Below are positions 17,273 through 64,000 of a DNA stretch of 64,000 nt, piece by piece. The notes below the pieces were generated by a model. That model was not told the origin of the DNA and did no database searches. It was given only the letters and a program-made list of their open reading frames with translations. Both the position numbers and the translations under genes were made by a program. Position 1 is the stretch's first letter; the number at the start of each line of letters is the position of its first letter. Source of the DNA: an uncultured Nitrospira sp. (GTDB lineage: Bacteria > Nitrospirota > Nitrospiria > Nitrospirales > Nitrospiraceae); contig CABVRX010000001.1 of assembly GCA_902500825.1 (NCBI GenBank), positions 272,648-336,647 on the forward strand, read 5' to 3'.

Positions 17273-17512
17273 AGTCTGATAATCTATATTATGTTAACTT
17301 TTAATACTTTTGCCATCGGCCGATTCACCACGTCTCTTCTACCCTTCCTTCACACCACTATCGCTCATCTTCATAGCGGATCGTGACTCCGAGGTCAATT
17401 GTGCAGAAGATTTTTGAGGCCTGCAAATCTGCGATTGACCGATCAGCATTTCGTCTCTTGCCGTGATGGAGTCGGTTTGCAATCACCCTGTCATGCTCGT
17501 ATGATCGGAAGA

Positions 17513-18448
17513 ATGAACTGCACGAAATGTAAGACCAAAGCCACCCTCAAGTTACCACGCCACAACGCTGCATTCTGCAAGGATTGCTTTAATAGTTTTA
17601 TATATGATCAGGTTCTTAAAGCGATTAAGACTCAGGATATGTTCTCGCGAAACGACCGTGTCCTTGTCGCCGTTTCAGGCGGCAAAGACAGTTTGGCACT
17701 TTGGAATATTCTTCTGAAGCTAGGCTATAAAACTGATGCGCTGTATGTAAACCTCGGGATCGGCGACTATTCCGAATCATCGCAACAAAAAGTCGTGCAT
17801 TTTTCTGAGACCGTGGCCGCAGGATATGGTGCTGTGCTCCATGTCCATACGGTCGAGCGAGAAGAGGGAGCCGGCATTCGTGAGCTCGCGATGCTGGCCC
17901 ACCGTCCGACTTGCTCGACATGCGGCACGATCAAACGTTACCAATTCAATCATGCGGCAATCCAGCATGGGTATGACGTCATGGCGACGGGACATAACTT
18001 GGATGATGAAGCGGCGCGACTGCTCGGGAACGTACTACACTGGCAGAACGAATACCTTGAGAAACAAGGTCCCAGCCTTCCCGCCTCCGTCGATGGATTC
18101 GCCAAGAAAGTAAAGCCCTTGTATCGCTTGACTGAGCGAGAATTGGCAGCCTATTGTGTTCTGAATAGGATCGACTATGTTGTAGAGGAATGCCCAATGG
18201 CGAAAGGAGCACGCACGCTCCTCTACAAGGAAGTTTTGAATCGCCTGGAAACTGAGTCGCCCGGAACCAAGCAAATGTTTTACTGGGGATTTCTTGAGAA
18301 GTCACGCACGGCTGAAACACCTTCGACCATCATGGAAAAGGATCGCTCGGCCTTGCACCCTTGTTCCCTCTGTGGCCAGCCCACCACGGCGGAAACCTGC
18401 TCCTACTGTAAACTTATGGCCCGTGCGAAAACTTCGCCTGCTCGTTGA
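17513..18448 (+). CDS. Ncs6/TtuA-type tRNA 2-thiolation enzyme
   Basis: A PP-loop ATPase that adenylates a tRNA uridine and delivers sulfur. It has 311 residues from ATG 17513. An N-terminal zinc finger (CTKCKTKA with FCKDCFN), the PP-loop SGGKDS near residue 55, CSTCG plus the later ECPMAKGAR cysteine that would hold a 4Fe-4S cluster, and a C-terminal zinc finger (CSLCG, CSYC) match the TtuA/Ncs6 group better than TtcA, which lacks both fingers. TtuA makes the m5s2U54 mark; Ncs6 acts at the wobble position. Which one applies is not decidable here. The start could also be ATG 17501, adding four residues. No sulfur-carrier gene is adjacent. Confidence 0.85.
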   Translation: MNCTKCKTKATLKLPRHNAAFCKDCFNSFIYDQVLKAIKTQDMFSRNDRVLVAVSGGKDSLALWNILLKLGYKTDALYVNLGIGDYSESSQQKVVHFSETVAAGYGAVLHVHTVEREEGAGIRELAMLAHRPTCSTCGTIKRYQFNHAAIQHGYDVMATGHNLDDEAARLLGNVLHWQNEYLEKQGPSLPASVDGFAKKVKPLYRLTERELAAYCVLNRIDYVVEECPMAKGARTLLYKEVLNRLETESPGTKQMFYWGFLEKSRTAETPSTIMEKDRSALHPCSLCGQPTTAETCSYCKLMARAKTSPAR

Positions 18449-51998: not shown

Positions 51999-52522
51999 CT
52001 ATTTTGCATCCTCCTCACCCAACATCTTCCTCGCTTCCGCAACCGTGATCATCACCGTCATCGGATCAATCGGTGAGGGAATGAACCCGTATCCCTGATA
52101 GAAACGTTTTGTGGCTTCAGAAATGGCATGGACGACGATGGCGCGAATGCCGGCGATTTCGGCAGCCTGAACGGTACGCAGAACCGCATCGCGTAACAGT
52201 CCGTTGCCGATTCCGCGACCTTGGAAGCTCTTATCGACGCAAGTCGCCCGAGCACCATGACGGGAACGGGATCGAGCATGTTGCGCTTCACACGTCCAGG
52301 CGGTCCGGCATAGGCAACAGCGCCGACGGCGAGGGCAAAATACCCAACCGCACTCTTTTGCACACAGACCGCATAGGTGCGAGACGATCCGCTGTCTTCA
52401 TTCGCGAGGGCGCGCCGGCGAAGTCAGTCATCTAAAACCGGCACCCCCGAATCAAAACCCAAAATATCATGCCCGGCGGTCAGTTTCTCAGGTGGAAAGA
52501 TGTCAGGAACAGAGCCGTTCAT
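51999..52522 (-). pseudogene. Broken GNAT-family toxin gene (TacT-like)
   Basis: Reads as a GNAT acetyltransferase toxin of about 174 residues starting at ATG 52522, overlapping the antitoxin stop. Recognisable blocks are EKLTAGHDILGFDSGVPVLDD, RRRALANEDSG, VCVQKSAVGYFALAVGAVAY, then FQGRGIGNGLLRDAVLRTVQ and VVHAISEATKRFYQGYGF. Two lesions break it: a TGA at 52426-52424 where a Trp codon would be expected after VLDD, and a one-base deletion near 52240 where LGRLA should run on into VDKSFQG. Both ends are preserved, so decay is recent or the lesions are sequence errors. Confidence 0.85.
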
Positions 52523-52704
52523 TCTTCCCAGGGCGCCCTGGGCTGCAGGAGGCGCCTCAGTTTAGGATTGCTTGCATGGGGCTTATCGAGCATGAATTCC
52601 GACCTGCTCCGTCCAAGCACTTCCGCTGCTCGGTTGATTATTGCCTTCTGCTTCCGACTAGCGCGCAGGTTGATCGTCTCTCCCCGCCCTATCTCTCTTG
52701 CCAT
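52519..52704 (-). pseudogene. Truncated DUF1778 antitoxin (TacA-like)
   Basis: A 61-residue frame from ATG 52704, nine bases after AAGGAGG. It has the ribbon-helix-helix N-terminus (MAREIGRGETINLRASRKQ, AAEVLGRSRSEFML) and the family C-terminus (ASNPKLRRLLQPRAPWEE). The middle of roughly 30 residues, usually present between these, is missing in frame. It overlaps the toxin start by 4 bp, the normal arrangement. Because the missing part normally wraps the toxin, it may bind DNA but not neutralise. Confidence 0.75.
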
Positions 52705-52822
52705 AGTGGCCTGCCTCCTTAAAAGCTTTGATAGCGCGTTCGGCCAGATGCTGGTAACGAGTTTAGCCGATGTCACATCAAAGTTAGGATGGATGTGTCC
52801 TGTGTCAGAATCGGCGGATAGA

Positions 52823-53251
52823 CTAAACAGAAGCTGCCACACCGACGACTCGGAGCCCACTGGCGCGAGACGCCGTCGCCAATCCCTCATCATGCGTCGC
52901 CATGACAAGATCGGCTCTCGTACGTTCTTTCCAAAGTAACGCCGTCGCGAGGTGAATGGCATCCAACGTGCCGAGCGTAGTCGGTAATGGTTGAGCGGCC
53001 CTCGATAGAATGGGTCTTGTCAGCTCAACCACTTCAATCGCCTCCAGTAACCGAAACACCGTCTCTCGTCTGACGGCAATCTCAGCATCCTTTAACCCTT
53101 CGGCCAACCTCAATCGATCCAATGTCCGCAGGCATTCAACTTCAACCAGGGCTGAAGCCACTCCTTGCGTGATCGATCGCCACTCTTTGAGGGCATTGGC
53201 CTGCCCGAGAACAATCCGCAAAATTGTCGAAGAATCGAGATATGCGATCAC
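52823..53251 (-). CDS. VapC-type PIN-domain toxin
   Basis: A protein of 142 residues, a PIN ribonuclease. The acidic residues appear in AYLDSSTILRI, VEVECLRTL, TLDAIHLATALLW and MATHDEGLA. VapC toxins cut tRNA or rRNA in stressed cells. It overlaps the antitoxin gene upstream by 4 bp. The frame is intact, unlike the neighbouring GNAT module. Confidence 0.9.
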   Translation of the reverse strand: MIAYLDSSTILRIVLGQANALKEWRSITQGVASALVEVECLRTLDRLRLAEGLKDAEIAVRRETVFRLLEAIEVVELTRPILSRAAQPLPTTLGTLDAIHLATALLWKERTRADLVMATHDEGLATASRASGLRVVGVAASV

Positions 53252-54673: not shown

Positions 54674-55840
54674 CTAACTGCGGCGACCGCTGATTTCCAA
54701 CAGGGTGATCATCGCGGCGATCAGGCCGGCCTGAAGAAGGAGCAGCACCGCCTCCATCGTCCCGGCATGCCGGAGCGCCAATGCTGCCAATCCAAGACAG
54801 ATTGTAAAGAGAAAAATCATGGCAACACTGGCTTGCCGAGAGCCGAGGGCCCGCTCCAGGCGGTGATGGAGATGATCCTTTCCGACATAGTCCAGCCACT
54901 CTTTCACGGATTTGACCTTTCCTGTGACGACACGCTCCACGGTAATGTGAATCATGTCATAGATGAGCACCCCGAAGATCAGCAGCGGATTGCTGAAGGA
55001 CACAATAGGATTTGAGTCCGCCCAGTTTCCCTTCACGGCCAAACAGGCCAGCGTGAATCCGATGAACGTCGAACCGCTGTCGCCCAAAAAAATGACGGCA
55101 GGCTTAGTCCCTCGAAAATTGTACGGCAGAAACCCAAGTCCGGCACCAATCATGGCGATTGCGAGCCAGCCCAACCCTGCCTGATTGGTTTCAAACGCCA
55201 CGACGCCCATGAACCCTGCCATGAGGACGGCGAGACCGGTAGCCAACCCATCCATGCCGTCGAAAAAATTGAAGGCGTTCGTAATCCCGACGATCCAAAA
55301 GAGCGTCAAAACAATGTTAGCCGTATCTCCGATCGGTCCGGACGGAAACAATGTCAAAATCTTGCCCGAAGCAATGACGATGCCCGCCGCCGCTAATTGT
55401 CCGAGCAGTTTTACCGAGGCCGGTAGCTCTCGAATGTCATCGATCACCCCAATAATCAGCAGAAGAGACCCGGCCGCCAAAATGGCCACCATCCAATCGG
55501 GTATGATGGAGTTCAATAACAGTGATCCGAGGAAGCCCGCATACAGAGCTAGCCCGCCGAGCCGTGGTGTGGGATGGACATGGATCTTACGATCAGCCGG
55601 AATATCGACAAGATTCCACCGATGGCCGATCCTAATCATCAGCGGGGTCACGGCTCCGGTACCGAGAAACGCAAAGAGAAAAATATGCAGCCATCTCAAG
55701 CCCTCAAGCTGAAAGAGCTCTCTAACAGAGGGGATAGCCAACGCGATAGCCCCAAGCGCTGCTCCGGACACGACCGGAGCGACCCAACGCCACGTCGTGG
55801 TGTAGAAGGGATGAGCCAGTTCCGTTTCGAGCGTCTTCAT
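54674..55840 (-). CDS. WecA/TagO-like sugar-phosphate transferase
   Basis: A protein of 388 residues from ATG 55840, coupled to the aminotransferase stop by ATGA; the longer frame to 56002 overlaps that gene. About ten hydrophobic segments are visible. Motifs of the undecaprenyl-phosphate GlcNAc-1-P family are present: [33 protein letters not shown], the FLGDSGS loop and the KDHLHHRL His motif. It loads the first sugar on the lipid carrier that the other genes of this cluster would extend. The exact sugar cannot be named. Confidence 0.93.
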
Positions 55841-56916
55841 GACCACTCCAAACGCAGTGCCATATGTACCTGGGCCACATTTTCGTCCGTGAGCGACGGG
55901 AACAGCGGAATCGAGAGCGCGGTACACTCGGCTTCTTCCGCAGCGGGAAATCCGTCCAAGTTCAGATAACGATGGAGCGAACGGAACACCGGCTTTCGAC
56001 ATTGAACCCCGCGTCCTTCAAATCGTGCGATCACACGACTTATACCGTCGACCTGGTCGTGCAGATCCGGCATACGCACCACGAACCGGTAGTACACGTG
56101 CGTACGGCCGGCCGGCACAATCGGCTGCACGAGTCCGGTACCGTTCAGCATCGCTCGATACTCATCCGCGAGTGCGTGTCGGCGTTCGAAAAAAAATGCC
56201 AGGCGGTTCAGTTGAGCCAAGCCGATCGCGGCTTGAAGATCGGTCATCTTGACATTCGTTGCTCCCGGACGGAGGGATGGGGCTTCGTCGTATTCCCTCA
56301 GCATGCGCACACGTTCCAGCAAACTTTCATCGCGTGACAGCACCATTCCCCCTTCGCCTGTACAGAGCAGTTTTGTCGCGTAAAAGGAGCAAATCGTTAA
56401 CAGGCCGACTGATCCCACGGCTCTCCCCTGCTCCGTCGCACCCAGGGTCTGCGCACAGTCTTCAATGATCGGCACTCCCAACCGTTCAAGAGTCGTCAAG
56501 TCAGCGGGAAGACCGAACAGATGAGGAATAATCATGGCCTTGGTCTTCGAGGTGAGCGCCTGTCGCGCCGCTGCCGGATCGATCCCAAACGTCTCCAGGT
56601 CGATATCGACGACTCGTGGCATCGCTCCGACACGCTGGATGGCCAACAACGGTGCGGCACAGACATAACTTGGCAGCACGACCTCATCGCCCGGTCCGAT
56701 TCCCAATGCTCGAAGCGCAACCTCCAGCGCCGCCGTCCCTGAGCTGATGGCCACTCCACCTGCCAGCCCTAAATAAGCCGCCATCCCGCGCTCAAACTGC
56801 TCGACCATGCCACCTTGAGCCAGCCGGCGAGATCGCAACACGTCGATCGCCGCCTGGAATTCATCCGTTTCGATAGAGGGTCGTGAATGAGGAACCATCG
56901 TGGCAACCGTCGTCAT
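55837..56916 (-). CDS. DegT/DnrJ/EryC1-family sugar aminotransferase
   Basis: A protein of 359 residues. The PLP lysine is in SFYATKLLCTGEGGMV, and ISSGTAALEVALRALG and EDCAQTLGA are typical. The family adds an amino group to nucleotide-activated sugars. It overlaps the WecA-like gene (ATGA) and its start overlaps the PIG-L stop by 4 bp. A link with an amino-sugar in the surface polymer is inferred from context. Confidence 0.92.
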   Translation of the reverse strand: MTTVATMVPHSRPSIETDEFQAAIDVLRSRRLAQGGMVEQFERGMAAYLGLAGGVAISSGTAALEVALRALGIGPGDEVVLPSYVCAAPLLAIQRVGAMPRVVDIDLETFGIDPAAARQALTSKTKAMIIPHLFGLPADLTTLERLGVPIIEDCAQTLGATEQGRAVGSVGLLTICSFYATKLLCTGEGGMVLSRDESLLERVRMLREYDEAPSLRPGATNVKMTDLQAAIGLAQLNRLAFFFERRHALADEYRAMLNGTGLVQPIVPAGRTHVYYRFVVRMPDLHDQVDGISRVIARFEGRGVQCRKPVFRSLHRYLNLDGFPAAEEAECTALSIPLFPSLTDENVAQVHMALRLEWS

Positions 56917-57560
56917 ACTCCGATATTGATGAATAATCGCAGAGGCAAAAATCCTTCCGCAGCTTTCACCCGGCCCTGGATTCCACGAAAATGCGCCGAC
57001 GACTGCACGAGGTCCGCAATGCCGATTCCTTCGATATTGGTTTTCTTCACTTGAGAGGCATGCGCTTCCAATGCCTGGATTTTTCGATCCAACGCGTGCT
57101 GTATATCCACAAAAACCGTGGGCGCAAAGTTCTGCGTGGTTGGCCCTTCATAAAACAGCACATTTTTTGTGTACCGAGTGGCGGTAATCGTGCTCATCGC
57201 CAAATGCCGGTGGTCTTGATGGGTATCGTCATGGTAGTGAACGAAGATAAAATGTGGTTCGATCTTCCGCACGATCTCCTCGACGGTTTGGATCAAATCT
57301 CGCCCAAGGGGAACTTCCGTGTCTTGGTAGCCACCCCAGAACACTTCTTCAGCTTGAAGAAGTGTGGCCGACCTCTCTTGTTCTTTCCTACGAATCGACA
57401 CATTGCCCCCCGCCCCGCCTTGCGTCATCACCATAAGAAAGATGCGATGGCCGTTCTCCGCGTACTTGATCAATGTCCCACCGCACCCGACTTCGATGTC
57501 ATCGGGATGAGCTCCCAGTGCAAGAATGCGCATTGGTTCCTTGACGGGAACATTCCTCAT
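56913..57560 (-). CDS. LmbE/PIG-L-family deacetylase
   Basis: A protein of 215 residues; AGGAGG sits seven bases before ATG 57560. Zinc-binding motifs are AHPDD near residue 17 and THQDHR about 100 residues later. The family removes acetyl groups from GlcNAc-type residues, so it probably de-acetylates a lipid-linked or activated sugar made by its neighbours. It sits 11 bp after the WbqC-like gene and overlaps the next by 4 bp. Confidence 0.92.
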   Translation of the reverse strand: MRNVPVKEPMRILALGAHPDDIEVGCGGTLIKYAENGHRIFLMVMTQGGAGGNVSIRRKEQERSATLLQAEEVFWGGYQDTEVPLGRDLIQTVEEIVRKIEPHFIFVHYHDDTHQDHRHLAMSTITATRYTKNVLFYEGPTTQNFAPTVFVDIQHALDRKIQALEAHASQVKKTNIEGIGIADLVQSSAHFRGIQGRVKAAEGFLPLRLFINIGV

Positions 57561-57571
57561 AGTTGATCCTC

Positions 57572-58279
57572 CTAGACCCTCGCCATCATATGATCCATCG
57601 ATCGCGTTCGGCGCAGCGCGGTAAGTGCGTCGGGACCTTGCATCAACAAGAGATCAAGCGAAGACAGATTCGGCTCGAACGGCTCGTACACCTGGCGATA
57701 GATCGGGTGTTTGAACACTTGCATTTCAAGCTGGATACCTGAGGATTCAAATCGCGGCTTATCCATATAGTGCTCGGCACCCGGTCCGGCAAGATATTGC
57801 GAAGCGCCGACCGCTCGACACAGATCGATCAACCGGTCCGTCGGCTCATCCCGAGCCGCGCATGCAGCGGCGCTATAGACCGGTGTCGTAATTCCATAGG
57901 CCGCGAGCAACCATTGCACAGTCGCTTTGTTGAGATCACTCAATCTGGCCCATGGTCGAGCGTACAGTTCCTGCAATTCATGAAGATACCGGTCGCGGTA
58001 TGGCGCCCGGGCATAATGTATATCCAACGCACGGAGGTGCTGAGGTTTCCAGGCGACAGTTGGATTAATCAGGACATCATCGATCCGTTGCCCGAGATGT
58101 TGCAGTACCGGAACTGTCAGCCACTGCCATCCCTTCGCAGTCCGGACGCGATTACGATTTTGCCATTCGTTCTTCTTAAACTGAACGGTATCCAACATAA
58201 TGAAGAGGTCCGCTTGATCGATTTTGTCGAGATACCCAAGCCATGGCAGAAATTGCGGTTGGTGAATGGTCACGCGCAT
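57572..58279 (-). CDS. WbqC-family protein
   Basis: A protein of 235 residues opening MRVTIHQPQFLPWLGYLDKI, then FKKNEWQNRNRVRTAKGWQW and KPQHLRALDIHY, matching the WbqC family. These occur in O-antigen and polysaccharide clusters; the biochemical role is unproven. It overlaps the PHP-like gene by 10 bp. Confidence 0.92.
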   Translation of the reverse strand: MRVTIHQPQFLPWLGYLDKIDQADLFIMLDTVQFKKNEWQNRNRVRTAKGWQWLTVPVLQHLGQRIDDVLINPTVAWKPQHLRALDIHYARAPYRDRYLHELQELYARPWARLSDLNKATVQWLLAAYGITTPVYSAAACAARDEPTDRLIDLCRAVGASQYLAGPGAEHYMDKPRFESSGIQLEMQVFKHPIYRQVYEPFEPNLSSLDLLLMQGPDALTALRRTRSMDHMMARV

Positions 58280-59874
58280 GTTTGCCCCCGGCCCTCAGTT
58301 TGGGCAATGCGGCTCTGAACGACTGTTCCAGATGAAGGTGCCATTCGTTGAGATCTAGTCGCGTTTGAGCTGTTCACCGGTGAGACAAAGATCGGATTGG
58401 TCAGCAGTTCTCCTCCGTTGCCGAGCACTTCCACTCGATAATTCAACCACCCGTCACGCTGCGCCTCACGATCTACGAGTTCTATCTGCAGGGGCGTCGG
58501 ACCTTCGATCTGTCTGATGACCTGACCGGATCGAACGACACGAAGCCTCGCCGCATATGGCTTTCCATCAATGGCAGACACGCCGACACGGACAATGATA
58601 TCGCCGTTCCTGCTTCCGCGAAGCGTTTCCCCAATCCCAGCGGACTGCCCGTTGTTCAACAGGCGAAACTCGTCGAGCTGAAGCAGAATATTCTGATCAC
58701 CCCTCGCGACCGCATAGGTTCGTCCTCCCTTAAGTCCAGCCATGATGGAGGCAGGAGTTCGCTCGGATGTCTGGATGACCGTATACACCCGATCCAAATC
58801 CTTTCCGGCATCCGTCGTTCCATGGAATGCCACCTCTCCGATCAGTGAGGGGAACATGTCCTGATCGTCTACCGACCTTGAACCCAGCAGTTGATCCCAT
58901 ACGCCACCCGGCGTGATCACTCGCCTGGCGTCTTGGTACAACCCACCGAATCCTGTGTAGCCTCGTGTCAAGACCAATGCTTCGGGGTGTGGTTCTGTCT
59001 TGATCGCAATGGTTCCCAGTGGGCCGAATGAATGGCGGCTGAAGTCGCGAGCCTCCGTCATCGACCAAAACACCAACGCGCCCCGTTCAACCGCCCGATC
59101 AATCAAGGCTTGATAAGGCCTGTACCCGACCGTGCCGTCATGAGAGCTGTAGACAGGGCTCTTCATCGGCCATGCATTGACCATCAGAGCAACGCAGGAG
59201 ATCACGAGGACGATGGCGAGAACGGGCCGACGAGATGGAGACCTTCTCCAATCAGAACTTCTTGAGTCCTGAGGATTCCACAACCAGACGGCGGGGACCA
59301 ACAGAAGCAGTGGGAGTCCATTGACCACACTCTGCCAGCCCCACACCAACGAGCCAGAGTTTCCATGAGAAGGAAGATGCTCATAATCGTCGGCCCTTTC
59401 CAGCCCGATGACGAGAAGATTTCGCTGGGCGTTGTGCATCGTGAGATCTCCGCGCAACAGCGACCCGGTCCAGTAATAATGGGGTGCAACCTCAATCCCC
59501 GGGATAATAATGAGATTCGGATGACGGTGCTGCACTGCGCGAACCTCATCGAGAAATCGCTGAATGCCGTATTCCATGACCGAGGGAAATGTGACGCAGT
59601 ATTTCAAGAATCCTTCGAGCGGCGTGAGCCCATACTCATACCGCAAAGAGAAATTTTCTGAGAGGATAAGGACGTCCAGCTGTTGCTCTTCGGCTCTTTT
59701 GGCCAACGATTCCAGATTGAGAGATCCCGTGCTCATCGTGCTGTGCACATGAATAGCGGCCCGCAACGAGTATTGCCCTACGGCCGGTGCAGCAGTTGTC
59801 CCCATGGCAACCTCTACCAGGCCCATCACGCCAACAAACAGTACGGCTGCAATACTACGGCCGGCTCTATGCAT
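58270..59874 (-). CDS. Membrane protein with degenerate PHP-like domain
   Basis: A protein of 534 residues from ATG 59874. The N-terminus has a signal or anchor (about 5-25). Residues about 38-150 look like a PHP metal-phosphatase fold (AAIHVHSTMSTGSLNLESLA, then LIIIPGIEVAPHYYW), but the usual DH motif is replaced by EN in LILSENFS. Two hydrophobic segments lie in the middle (about 195-212 and 225-245), splitting the domain, and the rest (VFWSMTEARDFSRHS) resumes it before a beta-rich tail (about 415-510). Its start could also be TTG 59907. It sits inside the glycan cluster, overlapping a glycosyltransferase by 8 bp. The function is unknown. Confidence 0.72.
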   Translation of the reverse strand: MHRAGRSIAAVLFVGVMGLVEVAMGTTAAPAVGQYSLRAAIHVHSTMSTGSLNLESLAKRAEEQQLDVLILSENFSLRYEYGLTPLEGFLKYCVTFPSVMEYGIQRFLDEVRAVQHRHPNLIIIPGIEVAPHYYWTGSLLRGDLTMHNAQRNLLVIGLERADDYEHLPSHGNSGSLVWGWQSVVNGLPLLLLVPAVWLWNPQDSRSSDWRRSPSRRPVLAIVLVISCVALMVNAWPMKSPVYSSHDGTVGYRPYQALIDRAVERGALVFWSMTEARDFSRHSFGPLGTIAIKTEPHPEALVLTRGYTGFGGLYQDARRVITPGGVWDQLLGSRSVDDQDMFPSLIGEVAFHGTTDAGKDLDRVYTVIQTSERTPASIMAGLKGGRTYAVARGDQNILLQLDEFRLLNNGQSAGIGETLRGSRNGDIIVRVGVSAIDGKPYAARLRVVRSGQVIRQIEGPTPLQIELVDREAQRDGWLNYRVEVLGNGGELLTNPIFVSPVNSSNATRSQRMAPSSGTVVQSRIAQTEGRGQTCA

Positions 59875-61054
59875 GACCCACTGCCGCCTCTCTGTAGATC
59901 GATTCAATGGCTCCGACCATGGCAGGGACGCTGTAGCCCATTCCGATACTTCGCGTTGCGTTTTGCCCTAATGTGCAGGCCCAAGCAGGATCGGACAATA
60001 TCTGCCGCAACGCGGTGGCTAGCGCATAACTATCTCCGGCTGGAATAAGGAGGCCGTTTTTCTCATCCTCAATCAGCGAAGGAATTCCCCCCACTCGGCT
60101 GGCAATCACCGGAAGTCCCGCTGCCATTGCCTCAATTAGGGCTCTCCCCATCCCTTCATTGAGAGACGGCAAAACGAAGCAATCCATCCCAGCCAACGCA
60201 CGCTCGACATCCTCTCGATGACCTACCAAATGCACGGCCTGCCTGATTCCGGCCTGGCTTGCCTGCTGCAGCAGAGCTTCATGCTGATCTCCGCTGCCGA
60301 GAATGACGAGATGCAGATGAGGATACTCCTGTTTCAATTGAGCGACGGCGTCGACTAAAAATCGATGCCCCTTAATCGTCGTCAACCAGCCGACCGAGCC
60401 GATGACGGTCACATGAGATGGGCAATCGAACCACTCCGGCATCACCTTTCCGGCCGCCCGAGCCTGTTTGAAACGGTCGATATCGATACCGCTTGGTATA
60501 ACAGCAAACCGACCAGCGCACCCAATGCTTCGCTCAAGTTGCTCGGTCTTTTCGGCTGTTGTCAGTGCGATTAACACATCGGTGATCCATGCCAATGCGC
60601 GTTCGATTTGTAGAAATATCCAGGAAGAAATTGCACCGAAGTGCCCATAGAACACATGCCCATGTGGTGTGTGAACAATCATGGGAGCGCCCGTGATCCG
60701 CGCGGCCAGCCTACCCAGCACTCCGGCTTTGGAGGTGTGCGTGTGAACGATGTGGGGTTGTTCCTGTCGCAACAGGGCAATCAGTTTCCACAGCGTTACC
60801 AGATCGGCCTTTGGGCTGATATGCCGAACCATCGATGGGACCATGTGGTGACGAATCCCCTCTTTCTCCAAGAACAGTAGATTTTCCATTGTTGCTGTGA
60901 GTCCCCCCTGCGCGTTCCACGTTCCGGCTTGTCCAGTAACCACAACCGGCTCAAACTGAGTGCGGTCATGCCCTAACACCGTCAGCATGGTATTCCGAGC
61001 AGAGCCACCGTGATCCAGTCGAGTGATGATGTGAACGACCTTTCGAACAGCCAT
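59867..61054 (-). CDS. Glycosyltransferase family 4/1 protein
   Basis: A protein of 395 residues from ATG 61054 (AGGACTGGACTG upstream). It has a GT-B fold: the N-domain (VVHIITRLDHGGSARNTML, IVHTHTSKAGVLGRLAARI) and the C-domain (VIPSGIDIDRF, VLPSLNEGMGRALIEAMAAG) with the nucleotide-sugar EX7E-type site. It adds a sugar to a lipid-linked intermediate. It starts 10 bp after the next upstream transferase stops. Confidence 0.93.
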   Translation of the reverse strand: MAVRKVVHIITRLDHGGSARNTMLTVLGHDRTQFEPVVVTGQAGTWNAQGGLTATMENLLFLEKEGIRHHMVPSMVRHISPKADLVTLWKLIALLRQEQPHIVHTHTSKAGVLGRLAARITGAPMIVHTPHGHVFYGHFGAISSWIFLQIERALAWITDVLIALTTAEKTEQLERSIGCAGRFAVIPSGIDIDRFKQARAAGKVMPEWFDCPSHVTVIGSVGWLTTIKGHRFLVDAVAQLKQEYPHLHLVILGSGDQHEALLQQASQAGIRQAVHLVGHREDVERALAGMDCFVLPSLNEGMGRALIEAMAAGLPVIASRVGGIPSLIEDEKNGLLIPAGDSYALATALRQILSDPAWACTLGQNATRSIGMGYSVPAMVGAIESIYREAAVGHA

Positions 61055-61064
61055 CAGTCCAGTC

Positions 61065-62288
61065 CTATGCCGCAACCCGTAACTGCCTTGGACCATCCAA
61101 CAAGCTGACCAGCTCGTTGCAATGTTGTGTCCAATTGTACCGACGTTCAATCAAGGCACGACCTTTTTGTGACAGCCGGCTTGCCTCGCCCGGCTCCTGT
61201 AGACGCCTCAAGACCCGTTCAATCGCCCACGCAATGGACCGACCATCGACTCCTTCTGCGACCAGAATAGGATCAACTTGGTTTAAGATCTCCGGAATCG
61301 CCCCAATCGGCGTCCCGATCACGGGCGTTCCGCAGGCCATCGCTTCGACCATCACCAGGCCGAATCCCTCTAATTGGATGCTCGGCATCAGGACAAGGTC
61401 GGCGGCCTGGTAATATTGACAGAGCTGAGATTCTGGAACGAACCCGATCAAACGAACGACGTCACTGAGTCCTTTTCGTCGTATGTCTGTTTGGAGTTGT
61501 TGATACAAGGGACCTTCCCCACCGATTACCAGCATCAGCTCATACCTCACACGGTTCAGCATCTCGATCGCACCCAGCAGATTGTCGAGCCCCATCCTCG
61601 GAACAAGATTTCGAACTGTAAAGAGAATCCTACGATTGATCGGAAGGTTGAGCCTCGTTTTTATGGGTAGTCGGTCTTCTAACGGCACAAAAGCATATGG
61701 ATCGACCGCCCCCGGGATGAGTGCTAGGCGATCGATCGAAATGCCATGCGCACCGATGACCCGCTGGCGCATAAACTGGCTGAGAACAGCCACCTTGTGA
61801 CATCGGGACATCACCGCGCGTTCTACTGAACGCCTAGCTCGAAGATTGGCCTGTCGACGCAAGCTTGCCAGAGTCGCAGAAGTCGAACCGTGCCTCGTCT
61901 CATACTCCTCATGAGCGAGAGAATGGCATAGATAGATCCATCGAGCTGCAGCATAACGACGAGCGAGAATCGGACCGAGCCCAGCCAGCGCCTGATGAAT
62001 AATGACGGCATCCAGTGGTTCGGTCGCACGCAAGTGATCGAACCGTTCAACCGATCGGCGCACTGAAGACCAGAGAAACGCCGCCTCGTGTTTGCGACTG
62101 ACCGCATAGCGCCATTCGCGAATTCCGCTCATCTCCAACACACCCTCTGATACGTGCTCAGGAGCCCGCGTCAGCAGCTCCACGTGATGTCCCAGCGTTG
62201 CCAACCCGAGAGCTTGGTTGCGAAGAACCCGTTCCGCTCCACCGATCACTCGCTCCGCCGAAACCTCGGCTAACATGAGGATATTCAT
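61065..62288 (-). CDS. Glycosyltransferase family 4 protein
   Basis: A protein of 407 residues, GT-B fold. It begins MNILMLAEVSAERVIGGAERV, with the C-domain IPGAVDPYAF, GGEGPLYQQLQTDIRR and MPSIQLEGFGLVMVEAMACG. Its start overlaps the asparagine synthase stop by 4 bp. It works in series with the following transferase in building the surface polymer; donor and acceptor sugars are unknown. Confidence 0.93.
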   Translation of the reverse strand: MNILMLAEVSAERVIGGAERVLRNQALGLATLGHHVELLTRAPEHVSEGVLEMSGIREWRYAVSRKHEAAFLWSSVRRSVERFDHLRATEPLDAVIIHQALAGLGPILARRYAAARWIYLCHSLAHEEYETRHGSTSATLASLRRQANLRARRSVERAVMSRCHKVAVLSQFMRQRVIGAHGISIDRLALIPGAVDPYAFVPLEDRLPIKTRLNLPINRRILFTVRNLVPRMGLDNLLGAIEMLNRVRYELMLVIGGEGPLYQQLQTDIRRKGLSDVVRLIGFVPESQLCQYYQAADLVLMPSIQLEGFGLVMVEAMACGTPVIGTPIGAIPEILNQVDPILVAEGVDGRSIAWAIERVLRRLQEPGEASRLSQKGRALIERRYNWTQHCNELVSLLDGPRQLRVAA

Positions 62289-64000
62289 GAGGCTGCCATC
62301 ACTGTCGTTTGTTCAGCGGAGTCGGCGCGCAAACCTCTATGCCAAAGCTCCAGCACTATCAGCGCATACAATTGATCTGAAAAGTTTCGGCGGCCGCTCT
62401 CGTGTTTCTCCAGCAACCACCTCACATAAGCCGGTTTGACATACCCTCGGTCTTTAATCACATCCTCCGCTAACAGATCGTGTGCCATCTCGCGAAGGTC
62501 CTCGCGAAGCCATCGAGCCATGGGCACCATAAACCCTTGCTTGGGTGCGCGAAGGATTCGATCCGGCAGAAGGCCTCGCAACATTCGACGCATAAACCCT
62601 TTCAATTGCCACCCGGTCAGACGTACCCGGGAGGGAATTCGCAGAGCTGCATCCAAGAGATGATGATCGCAAAATGGGACACGCAACTCGAGTGAGTGCA
62701 TCATACTCATTCGATCCGCCATGCGCAGGAGATCGTCAGGCAGATAACTCTGTAGATCGACACCCATGGCACAGTCCGCTGGGTCGGACGATGGCCACCG
62801 GTCAAATAGAACCTCAACAGACCCAAGCGGCCTGTCGCTGAGGAACATCCCATCCAAACGGTCTCCCCAGAGAGCGCCGTCCCATTCGGCGGGAATGAAC
62901 GTGGTCCAGCGGCGGTATTGCTCGGGAAGCGGAAGATGTCCATCGTTCAGAAATCGTTTCAACCTGGCGGCCTGGTCACGAGCCTGTCCGTCCTCACCGA
63001 TACGCCGACTCCATCCCGCCATCTGCTTACGCAGTACACGAGGAATTCGTTGATACTGTGCAGCCGTACGGAGACCCAAATAGCGTGGATATCCACCGAA
63101 GAGTTCATCTCCACCGATCCCCGACAGCGCAACCGTGACGGTCTGCCGCGCAGCCTTTGAAACGAGATAGGTAGGGATAGCCGAGGAGTCAGCAAACGGC
63201 TCCCCCATACCCTCCACCACTTTCCCGATCAGCGTGATCGCATCCGGCTTCAGAATCGTCTCCGAATGAACGGTCTTGAAGTGATTGGCCAAAAAACGCG
63301 CAGATTCCAACTCGCTGAATGATTGGTCGGACGGATGCTCATAGCCAATCGAGAAGGTCTTGACCGGCCCACTCTGTTCTTTTGCCATCATGGCCAACAA
63401 AGATGCCGAGTCGAGACCACCCGAGAGAAATAACCCCAATGGAACGTCGCTGATCAGGTGAGATTTCACGGTCTCTTCAAAAATATGCAGCACCTCCCGG
63501 CTTGCCTCTTTAGTGGTCCATTGGCTGTGCCTGTGAAGCGTTTCCTCAGGACGGTAGTATTGCAACAACTCCACTCGTCCGTTTGATATGTTCATCGCTT
63601 CGCCTGGACGCAATTGGTGCACGCTGGCGATCATCGTGTCCGGCCCTGGCACATACAAGTGCATCAGGTACTCGGCGACTGCTTCCGGCCGGATCCGCCA
63701 ATCGGGCAAGGCTTCGAGCAGAGACGGAATCTCGGATGAAAATATGACGGAAGGTCCCCTGCCGGTTTCGCATTGTCGAATCGCATAGTACAGCGGCTTG
63801 ATACCAAGGCGATCACGAACCAGCCACGCAGAACGTCGCTCCTGATCCCACAGCGCCACCGCGAACATACCTCGCAATCGACGAAAGGCCTCGAATCCTT
63901 CGTCCTCGTACAGGTGGACCAAGACTTCGGTATCACAGCGAGTCTCAAGTCGATGTCCCCTGTTCACAAGCTCTTGACGCAATTCTCGATAGTTATAAAT
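62285..64000 (-). CDS. Asparagine synthase-type amidotransferase (5' end outside window)
   Basis: The C-terminal 571 residues are visible; the frame is open at base 64000, so the N-terminal catalytic Cys and first part of the glutaminase domain lie outside. The glutaminase part shows IYNYRELRQELVNRGHRLET and RLGIKPLYYA. The synthase part has the PP-loop LSGGLDSASLL and SGIGGDELFGGYPRYLG. In exopolysaccharide and exosortase clusters this family amidates sugar uronic acids or acts on an unknown substrate, so asparagine synthesis should not be assumed. Confidence 0.9.
   Translation of the reverse strand: MYNYRELRQELVNRGHRLETRCDTEVLVHLYEDEGFEAFRRLRGMFAVALWDQERRSAWLVRDRLGIKPLYYAIRQCETGRGPSVIFSSEIPSLLEALPDWRIRPEAVAEYLMHLYVPGPDTMIASVHQLRPGEAMNISNGRVELLQYYRPEETLHRHSQWTTKEASREVLHIFEETVKSHLISDVPLGLFLSGGLDSASLLAMMAKEQSGPVKTFSIGYEHPSDQSFSELESARFLANHFKTVHSETILKPDAITLIGKVVEGMGEPFADSSAIPTYLVSKAARQTVTVALSGIGGDELFGGYPRYLGLRTAAQYQRIPRVLRKQMAGWSRRIGEDGQARDQAARLKRFLNDGHLPLPEQYRRWTTFIPAEWDGALWGDRLDGMFLSDRPLGSVEVLFDRWPSSDPADCAMGVDLQSYLPDDLLRMADRMSMMHSLELRVPFCDHHLLDAALRIPSRVRLTGWQLKGFMRRMLRGLLPDRILRAPKQGFMVPMARWLREDLREMAHDLLAEDVIKDRGYVKPAYVRWLLEKHESGRRNFSDQLYALIVLELWHRGLRADSAEQTTVMAAS

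Follow-up and report, generated by a model that had tools for sequence, protein, structure and literature searches.

The usual interpretation of a PHP domain is that of a metal-dependent phosphoesterase. In the available text of PMC3666897, nine residues of PHP enzymes hold three metals, and the PHP domain of E. coli DNA polymerase III, in which five of the nine ligands are lost, provides a precedent for a conserved PHP domain without metal. According to the accessible parts of PMC9410882, RNase AM builds its three sites from H13, E72 and D255; from E72, H83 and H198; and from D20, H45 and H257, respectively. The same parts describe an insertion domain (residues 107-176) that lies between H83 and H198. 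By comparison with CV1693, the 5' phosphate of the substrate is buried between this insertion and the PHP domain (PMC9410882).

The PHP protein described here departs from this scheme in both its metal ligands and its insertion. It is encoded in a 64,000-nucleotide stretch (hereafter, the window) of contig CABVRX010000001.1, from an uncultured Nitrospira sp. genome of 50 contigs and 3.79 Mb (GCA_902500825.1). All window coordinates given below lie on the reverse (-) strand. The gene, at 58270-59874, specifies 534 residues: a likely signal peptide, then a PHP fold that two hydrophobic segments divide, and finally an Ig-like tail. Homologues were found. The open reading frame was listed from a TTG at 59907; the ATG at 59874 agrees with the homologues and gives an 8-base overlap with the stop of the upstream glycosyltransferase gene. 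The stop of the PHP gene overlaps the start of the WbqC gene, in a tightly packed, operon-like arrangement. By eye, residues 1-30 (59785-59874) form a likely signal peptide, with a positive N-region, a hydrophobic core and, in homologues, an AxA-like end. The motifs, coordinates, two hydrophobic segments and beta-rich tail (about residues 390 to 500) reported in the original prediction are all as it described them.

The split domain, which that prediction had called PHP-like, is predicted to have a PHP fold and to be kin to the secreted CehA/McbA-like PHP proteins. Structure prediction, proposed at the outset as a check, gave a PHP fold in two AlphaFold models: that of the window protein (pLDDT 73.5, pTM 0.74) and that of the homologue L042 without its N-terminus (pLDDT 76.9, pTM 0.78). 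Structure matches were computed by VIA on these predicted models. The window-protein model matches TM0559 (2anu_B; Z 19.0, rmsd 2.8, 212 residues) and BVU_3505 (3e38_B; Z 16.1, rmsd 3.2, 217 residues), while the L042 model matches 2anu_C (Z 20.1), 3e38_A (Z 18.2), 7ug9 (Z 13.1) and 2yb1 (Z 12.1). In the window-protein model, two stretches have a pLDDT below 50, residues 273-278 and 351-357; ligand positions 272, 349 and 351 lie in or next to them. The N-terminal half of the domain comprises residues 36-160 (59395-59769), as delimited by the Pfam PHP match at residues 41-130 and the two models. Models and structure matches together delimit the C-terminal half at residues 250-358 (58801-59127) and the Ig-like beta-sandwich tail at about residues 390-500 (58375-58707). 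The tail matches many Ig-like domains at Z of about 9, including, for the L042 model, the Wzt carbohydrate-binding domain 6o14_B (Z 9.4). This fold is common, so it says nothing of function.

Sequence profiles were also compared. Pfam PHP scores the window protein at 22.4 bits (E = 1.7e-4), just under the 26.4-bit cut-off that the homologues L042 (29.5 bits) and L077 (26.5 bits) pass. The NCBIfam CehA/McbA profile (NF038032) matches it at 51.6 bits (E = 8.7e-14), mainly in the C-terminal part and below the 80-bit cut-off; all 13 of 13 members of set A3 match this profile at E <= 0.001. Profile-profile comparison gave a probability of 98.4 and an E-value of 5.7e-15 for a match to L078-L080, three secreted PHP proteins of canonical type from the phylum. 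The RNase AM and nucleoside bisphosphatase profiles NF047791 and NF041577 gave 11.5 and 12.6 bits, against cut-offs of 375 and 400. A sequence search of solved structures with the window protein returned no match, and the family profile returned weak PHP matches, the best being 3e38 (E = 0.014). A match to DUF5671 (PF18920; residues 164-235, E = 3.4e-4, below cut-off) spans the hydrophobic segments and was set aside as a transmembrane look-alike.

No described family with this layout was found in Pfam, NCBIfam or literature searches, in line with what the original prediction had supposed. The combination of a PHP domain with a beta domain is already known from 3e38 and the canonical secreted PHP proteins; the unusual parts are the hairpin and the ligand exchanges. 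In the available text of PMC12419801, a PHP domain appears in connection with polyisoprenoids, in a different layout.

The three-metal centre appears, by alignment, to be dismantled in the Nitrospira form. We placed the RNase AM ligands on the family via the canonical relatives and counted them in a set of 58 distinct full-length homologues that contains the window protein (L091, which has masked stretches, and L018, which is partial, were left out). In the window protein, four of the nine canonical ligands are kept (H42, H44, E128 and H351) and five are lost (T49, N74, N152, M272 and A349). IHVHSTMSTG (residues 41-50; 59725-59754) retains the HxH pair, H42 in all 58 and H44 in 56, and has T49 for the usual Asp (T in 56). 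Within SEN (residues 72-74), N74 stands for the ligand His equivalent to H45 of RNase AM (E73 and N74, 59653-59658; N in 56/58). The bridging Glu, E128, is kept in all 58; it belongs to IIPGIEVAP (residues 123-131) and to PGIEVAPHYYWTGS (59461-59502), which also carries the invariant W135 and G137. N152 (59419-59421) takes the place of H83 of RNase AM, again with N in 56/58. In WSMTE (59053-59067), M272 replaces the ligand His of the HP motif (M in 51, L in 5 and H in 2 of the 58), next to the invariant W270. GEVAFH (58822-58839) contains A349 in place of the ligand Asp (A in 54/58) and the kept ligand H351 (H in 56/58).

Read in order, the ligand positions of the window's clade are H-H-T-N-E-N-M-A-H, compared with H-H-D/H-H-E-H-C/H-D/N-H in canonical proteins. 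In this clade every one of the three canonical metal sites lacks at least one ligand, which makes an ordinary PHP mechanism unlikely there. On this basis, the Nitrospira form would lack ordinary phosphoesterase activity, and the phosphoesterase or glycan hydrolase first suggested for it finds no support. The suggestion of an altered metal site was right about N74 and incomplete, as it saw one change where four more exist (T49, N152, M272 and A349). The kept residues H42, H44, E128 and H351 are all present together in 56 of the 58 homologues. The two exceptions, L075 (8927-10417; genome G080) and L076 (6640-8205; genome G307), are Nitrospirota relatives that keep six ligands: the first His is retained, the second (position 44) is Q or D, positions 74, 152, 272 and 349 are H, H, H and D, and the last His (position 351) has become Lys.

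Within the gene, conservation is highest in the two PHP halves. In five pairs with close homologues, dN/dS ratios calculated from the dN and dS values are about 0.06-0.08 for residues 36-160, versus about 0.19-0.23 for the whole gene. Among the 56 window-type sequences, invariant columns make up 43/219 of the PHP domain, 0/56 of the hairpin and 7/114 of the tail, with mean conservation of 0.73, 0.53 and 0.56, respectively. Six of the nine ligand positions are invariant in these 56 sequences (P about 0.002 versus other PHP columns). Of the five positions with replacements, considered by themselves, two are invariant (P = 0.25), which is no more often than for other PHP columns. Residues invariant across all 58 homologues include H42, Y81, E128, W135, G137, W270, F309, W326, D327 and E347.

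A membrane hairpin is found at the place of the RNase AM insertion domain. Two hydrophobic segments (at about residues 181-199 and 215-236) with a net positive loop between them lie between the N152 and M272 positions in 58/58 distinct full-length homologues. The same hairpin and positive loop recur in 32/32 hairpin rows of a smaller sequence set. In the window protein, the hairpin comprises residues 181-236 (59167-59334), between the positions of H83 and H198, a placement based on sequence position alone. It is absent from the canonical relatives L078-L080, in which the N152-M272 stretch is only 18 residues long. Since the insertion domain of RNase AM falls between H83 and H198, the hairpin takes over the position of the substrate lid. 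The pocket mouth would then lie close to the membrane surface, and it may face the membrane.

Together, the signal peptide and the positive loop suggest that the loop lies in the cytoplasm and the PHP domain in the periplasm, an orientation that follows from the positive-inside rule and from a signal peptide judged by eye. The topology that we infer places the PHP domain and the Ig-like tail in the periplasm, with an anchor in the inner membrane. The likely signal peptide and the hairpin with its positive loop thus bear out the envelope location proposed earlier.

The PHP gene is part of a Wzx/Wzy-type polysaccharide cluster, with the gene order AsnB-GT-GT-PHP-WbqC-PIG-L-DegT-WecA. Upstream are an asparagine-synthase-like amidotransferase gene that runs past the window (62285-64000; TIGR01536, E = 1e-96; PF00733), a GT4 glycosyltransferase gene (61065-62288; NCBIfam profile match) and, as the immediate neighbour, another GT4 glycosyltransferase gene (59867-61150; TIGR03088, E = 4.9e-61, below cut-off). 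Downstream, the next gene encodes a WbqC family protein (57572-58279; PF08889, E = 2.5e-71), followed by genes for a PIG-L family deacetylase (56913-57560; PF02585, E = 1.2e-25) and a DegT-family sugar aminotransferase (55837-56916; PF01041, E = 9.1e-82). The WecA-like initiating transferase (glycosyl transferase family 4; 54674-56002; PF00953, E = 9.9e-36) probably starts later than its open reading frame, because this overlaps the DegT gene. The cluster continues beyond the window. Its further products include a Wzc-like chain-length/tyrosine kinase, a Wza-like exporter, a MOP flippase (Wzx) and a Wzy_C protein, besides glycosyltransferases, methyltransferases and the asparagine-synthase-like amidotransferase named above, whose gene is complete in the longer stretch. 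The glycan cluster of the original prediction is therefore real.

Several other genes were noted around these clusters. At the far end of the cluster in L098, an HD-domain protein gene (17306-18259, -) adjoins the gene for the polysaccharide exporter; a ComEC-like gene lies further along. Within the window, at 52519-53251, a short open reading frame with a ribbon-helix-helix-like antitoxin stretch that ends early overlaps a PIN-domain toxin-like open reading frame; judged by eye, these are perhaps the remnants of toxin-antitoxin pairs. TIGR matches on neighbouring genes suggested an XrtA/exosortase cluster. This was rejected, as the scores are below cut-offs and the exosortase genes are on other contigs. 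XrtA-type exosortase genes are found on contigs C10 and C32 of the same genome (G000; L101 and L102), away from the PHP cluster.

The neighbourhood is strongly conserved. Among 36 loci, counting genes on the same strand within 7 kb, WbqC (downstream of the PHP gene), PIG-L, DegT and the first glycosyltransferase are each found in 35, WecA in 32, and AsnB and the second glycosyltransferase in 29 each. Several of the misses are contig ends (L028, L041, L043 and L093). L077 (8798-10375) is a real exception for WbqC, PIG-L, DegT and WecA: its hairpin PHP gene is followed by AsnB rather than WbqC, which is on another contig of the same genome. A search for the same architecture beside WbqC and PIG-L genes, suggested with the original prediction, thus found both in 35/36 loci, and the arrangement recurs in a second phylum.

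Across 394 Nitrospirota genomes, the PHP protein was matched in 46 and WbqC in 81. When the two lists were compared by eye, the 46 PHP genomes proved to be exactly those with the top 46 WbqC scores, all 228 bits or more; the 35 genomes scoring 216 bits or less for WbqC gave no PHP match. Relatives retrieved with patterns from the window protein carry the names Nitrospira or Nitrospirota in 19 of 20 loci, with L043 titled Gammaproteobacteria. Homologue matches with E-values of about 1e-8 to 1e-3 were short and partial and were not counted; those examined individually, L078-L081, are other PHP proteins without a hairpin. Plasmid searches with the window protein and L075 returned no match.

The idea that the family is confined to Nitrospirota was overturned by PHP matches in 38/398 genomes of the phylum of G410. 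The copy in G410 itself (L043) is a Nitrospira-type cassette copy on a 5502-base contig of the metagenome-assembled genome titled Gammaproteobacteria. This copy nests among Nitrospiraceae in the tree, and G410 is the one positive genome among 274 in its class. Thus, given also the small contig, it may be mis-binned or transferred.

The remaining copies of the second phylum have a distinct ligand set. We tabulated ligands for 14 of the 37 matching genomes other than G410 (L144-L157). These are small genomes with the AsnB-GT-GT-PHP-WbqC-PIG-L-DegT-WecA order, and WbqC and PIG-L lie downstream in 13/14; the L144 contig ends soon after the gene. All 14 copies have the hairpin with its positive loop, D-x-R in place of HxH, and then D, H, E, H, H, D and H, so that 7/9 canonical ligands are kept. 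Gene order and hairpin are unchanged here while the metal site is more complete, so the protein of this phylum may be active. The sfz stalk gene cluster of Zetaproteobacteria was considered as a described second-phylum cassette and rejected: PHP, WbqC, deacetylase, asparagine synthase and phosphoesterase are absent from the available text of PMC8250860.

Three ligand sets therefore exist at the nine canonical positions: H-H-T-N-E-N-M-A-H in the window's clade, H-Q/D-S/G-H-E-H-H-D-K in the two-genome form of G080 and G307, and D-R-D-H-E-H-H-D-H in the second phylum. The bridging Glu is the only ligand position identical in all three. Tree support is 100/100 for the two-genome form, 100/100 for the second-phylum form and 91/94 for the window's form, in a tree whose canonical root is very distant and which does not settle the branching order of the three. 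The simplest history would start from a hairpin protein whose metal site was complete or almost so, with different ligands lost in three lineages.

With most metal ligands exchanged and a hairpin inserted, the Nitrospira protein probably has a job in coat-making other than the textbook PHP role. We propose, with a probability of roughly 0.5, that it is a non-hydrolytic (or at most one-metal) assembly component: a membrane-anchored, periplasm-facing, putative binder of lipid-linked or nascent glycan. The protein would be anchored in the inner membrane, with its PHP domain and Ig-like tail directed toward the periplasm and a two-helix membrane hairpin replacing the substrate-covering insertion domain of RNase AM-type enzymes. 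Its partners in a Wzx/Wzy-type pathway would be the WbqC protein, the PIG-L deacetylase, the aminotransferase and the WecA-like transferase. The PHP domain would bind the lipid-linked repeat unit or the nascent glycan at the periplasmic leaflet, although the invariant aromatic residues, which might serve such binding, could instead be structural. One cassette with three metal sites implies either a shared job that does not need the metal centre or chemistry specific to each lineage. For the window's form we favour the former, at about even odds.

The conserved residues can also be read as a rebuilt enzyme, in which H42, H44, E128 and H351 hold a single metal and the protein hydrolyses or transfers an acyl, amide or phosphate group on a membrane-bound glycan. 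These three His and one Glu occur together in 56/58 homologues, purifying selection on the PHP domain is strong, the closest NCBIfam family bears a metallohydrolase name, and relatives in the same cassette retain more ligands. Both the second-phylum protein (7/9 ligands) and the G080/G307 type (6/9) agree with an enzyme, and the role may thus be catalytic in all of them, with the Nitrospira form using other chemistry. However, 56/58 homologues have A, G or V where an Asp would complete the first site, and the second and third sites are gone, while in the available text of PMC3666897 the E. coli polymerase III domain with five of nine ligands lost binds no metal. We regard a one-metal enzyme as the main rival, possible but less likely than the binding role. 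Bolder, and rather unlikely, is the reading in which the PHP centre of a two-phylum cassette has been rewired in three clade-fixed ways, the three His and one Glu of the Nitrospira form making a new one-metal or metal-free site by the membrane for an undescribed step on lipid-linked glycan, and the lid having become a membrane hairpin.

The remaining explanations are far less probable than either. An ordinary three-metal PHP phosphoesterase, toward which the original prediction leaned, would account for the PHP fold and the retained HxH and bridging Glu, but is very improbable with five of nine ligands exchanged, and nearly fixed, in the window's clade. Capsule clusters do hold PHP tyrosine phosphatases, such as CpsB/YwqE, and a Wzc-like chain-length/tyrosine kinase gene is present in the same cluster, so the protein might be the phosphatase partner of that kinase. 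The signal peptide and hairpin charge, however, put the domain outside the cytoplasm, away from the kinase domain, and the metal site is broken, which leaves this role even less credible than an ordinary phosphoesterase. Least credible of all is a decayed enzyme under relaxed selection. Ligands have been lost, but the near-fixed replacements (56/58), together with PHP halves that are the most conserved part of the gene, argue against decay, and two phyla have preserved the gene order.

The PHP protein described here is built into the membrane in a polysaccharide assembly pathway; its fold is under strong selection, its ligands differ in three clade-specific ways and its gene neighbours are constant. 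Ligand exchange beside constant neighbours makes it possible to test directly if PHP metal chemistry is required at all for a conserved step of the pathway. The AsnB-GT-GT-PHP-WbqC-PIG-L-DegT-WecA order is also a searchable gene set for an apparently unstudied envelope polysaccharide of nitrifiers.

Among known systems, BVU_3505 (3e38) and TM0559 (2anu), PHP proteins without assigned function that are by title predicted metal-dependent phosphoesterases, share the PHP fold (Z 16.1-20.1). The former is titled a two-domain protein and aligns past the PHP domain, as the window protein does. Both differ from it: they are much shorter, at 222-343 residues, show no trace of a membrane hairpin and have 16-20% identity in the alignments. 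The CehA/McbA metallohydrolases (NF038032) are a weak sequence match, from which the window protein differs by a score below 80 bits, its hairpin and its lost ligands. RNase AM/YciV and CV1693 (7ug9, 9etk and 2yb1) have a PHP barrel with an insertion between H83 and H198, as here. According to the available text of PMC9410882, that insertion is a soluble domain that aids binding of the substrate phosphate, in enzymes with three metals, whereas the window protein has a membrane hairpin and an incomplete site. The PHP phosphodiesterase Sb-PDE of Sphingobium resembles the window protein in its putative signal peptide and PHP domain, but according to the accessible parts of PMC5460133 it is an active enzyme that retains its metal ligands and has about two zinc bound. 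The variant PHP domain of E. coli DNA polymerase III has likewise retained its fold after losing five of nine ligands, as reported in the available text of PMC3666897; unlike the window protein, it is part of a polymerase, has lost other residues and has no membrane part.
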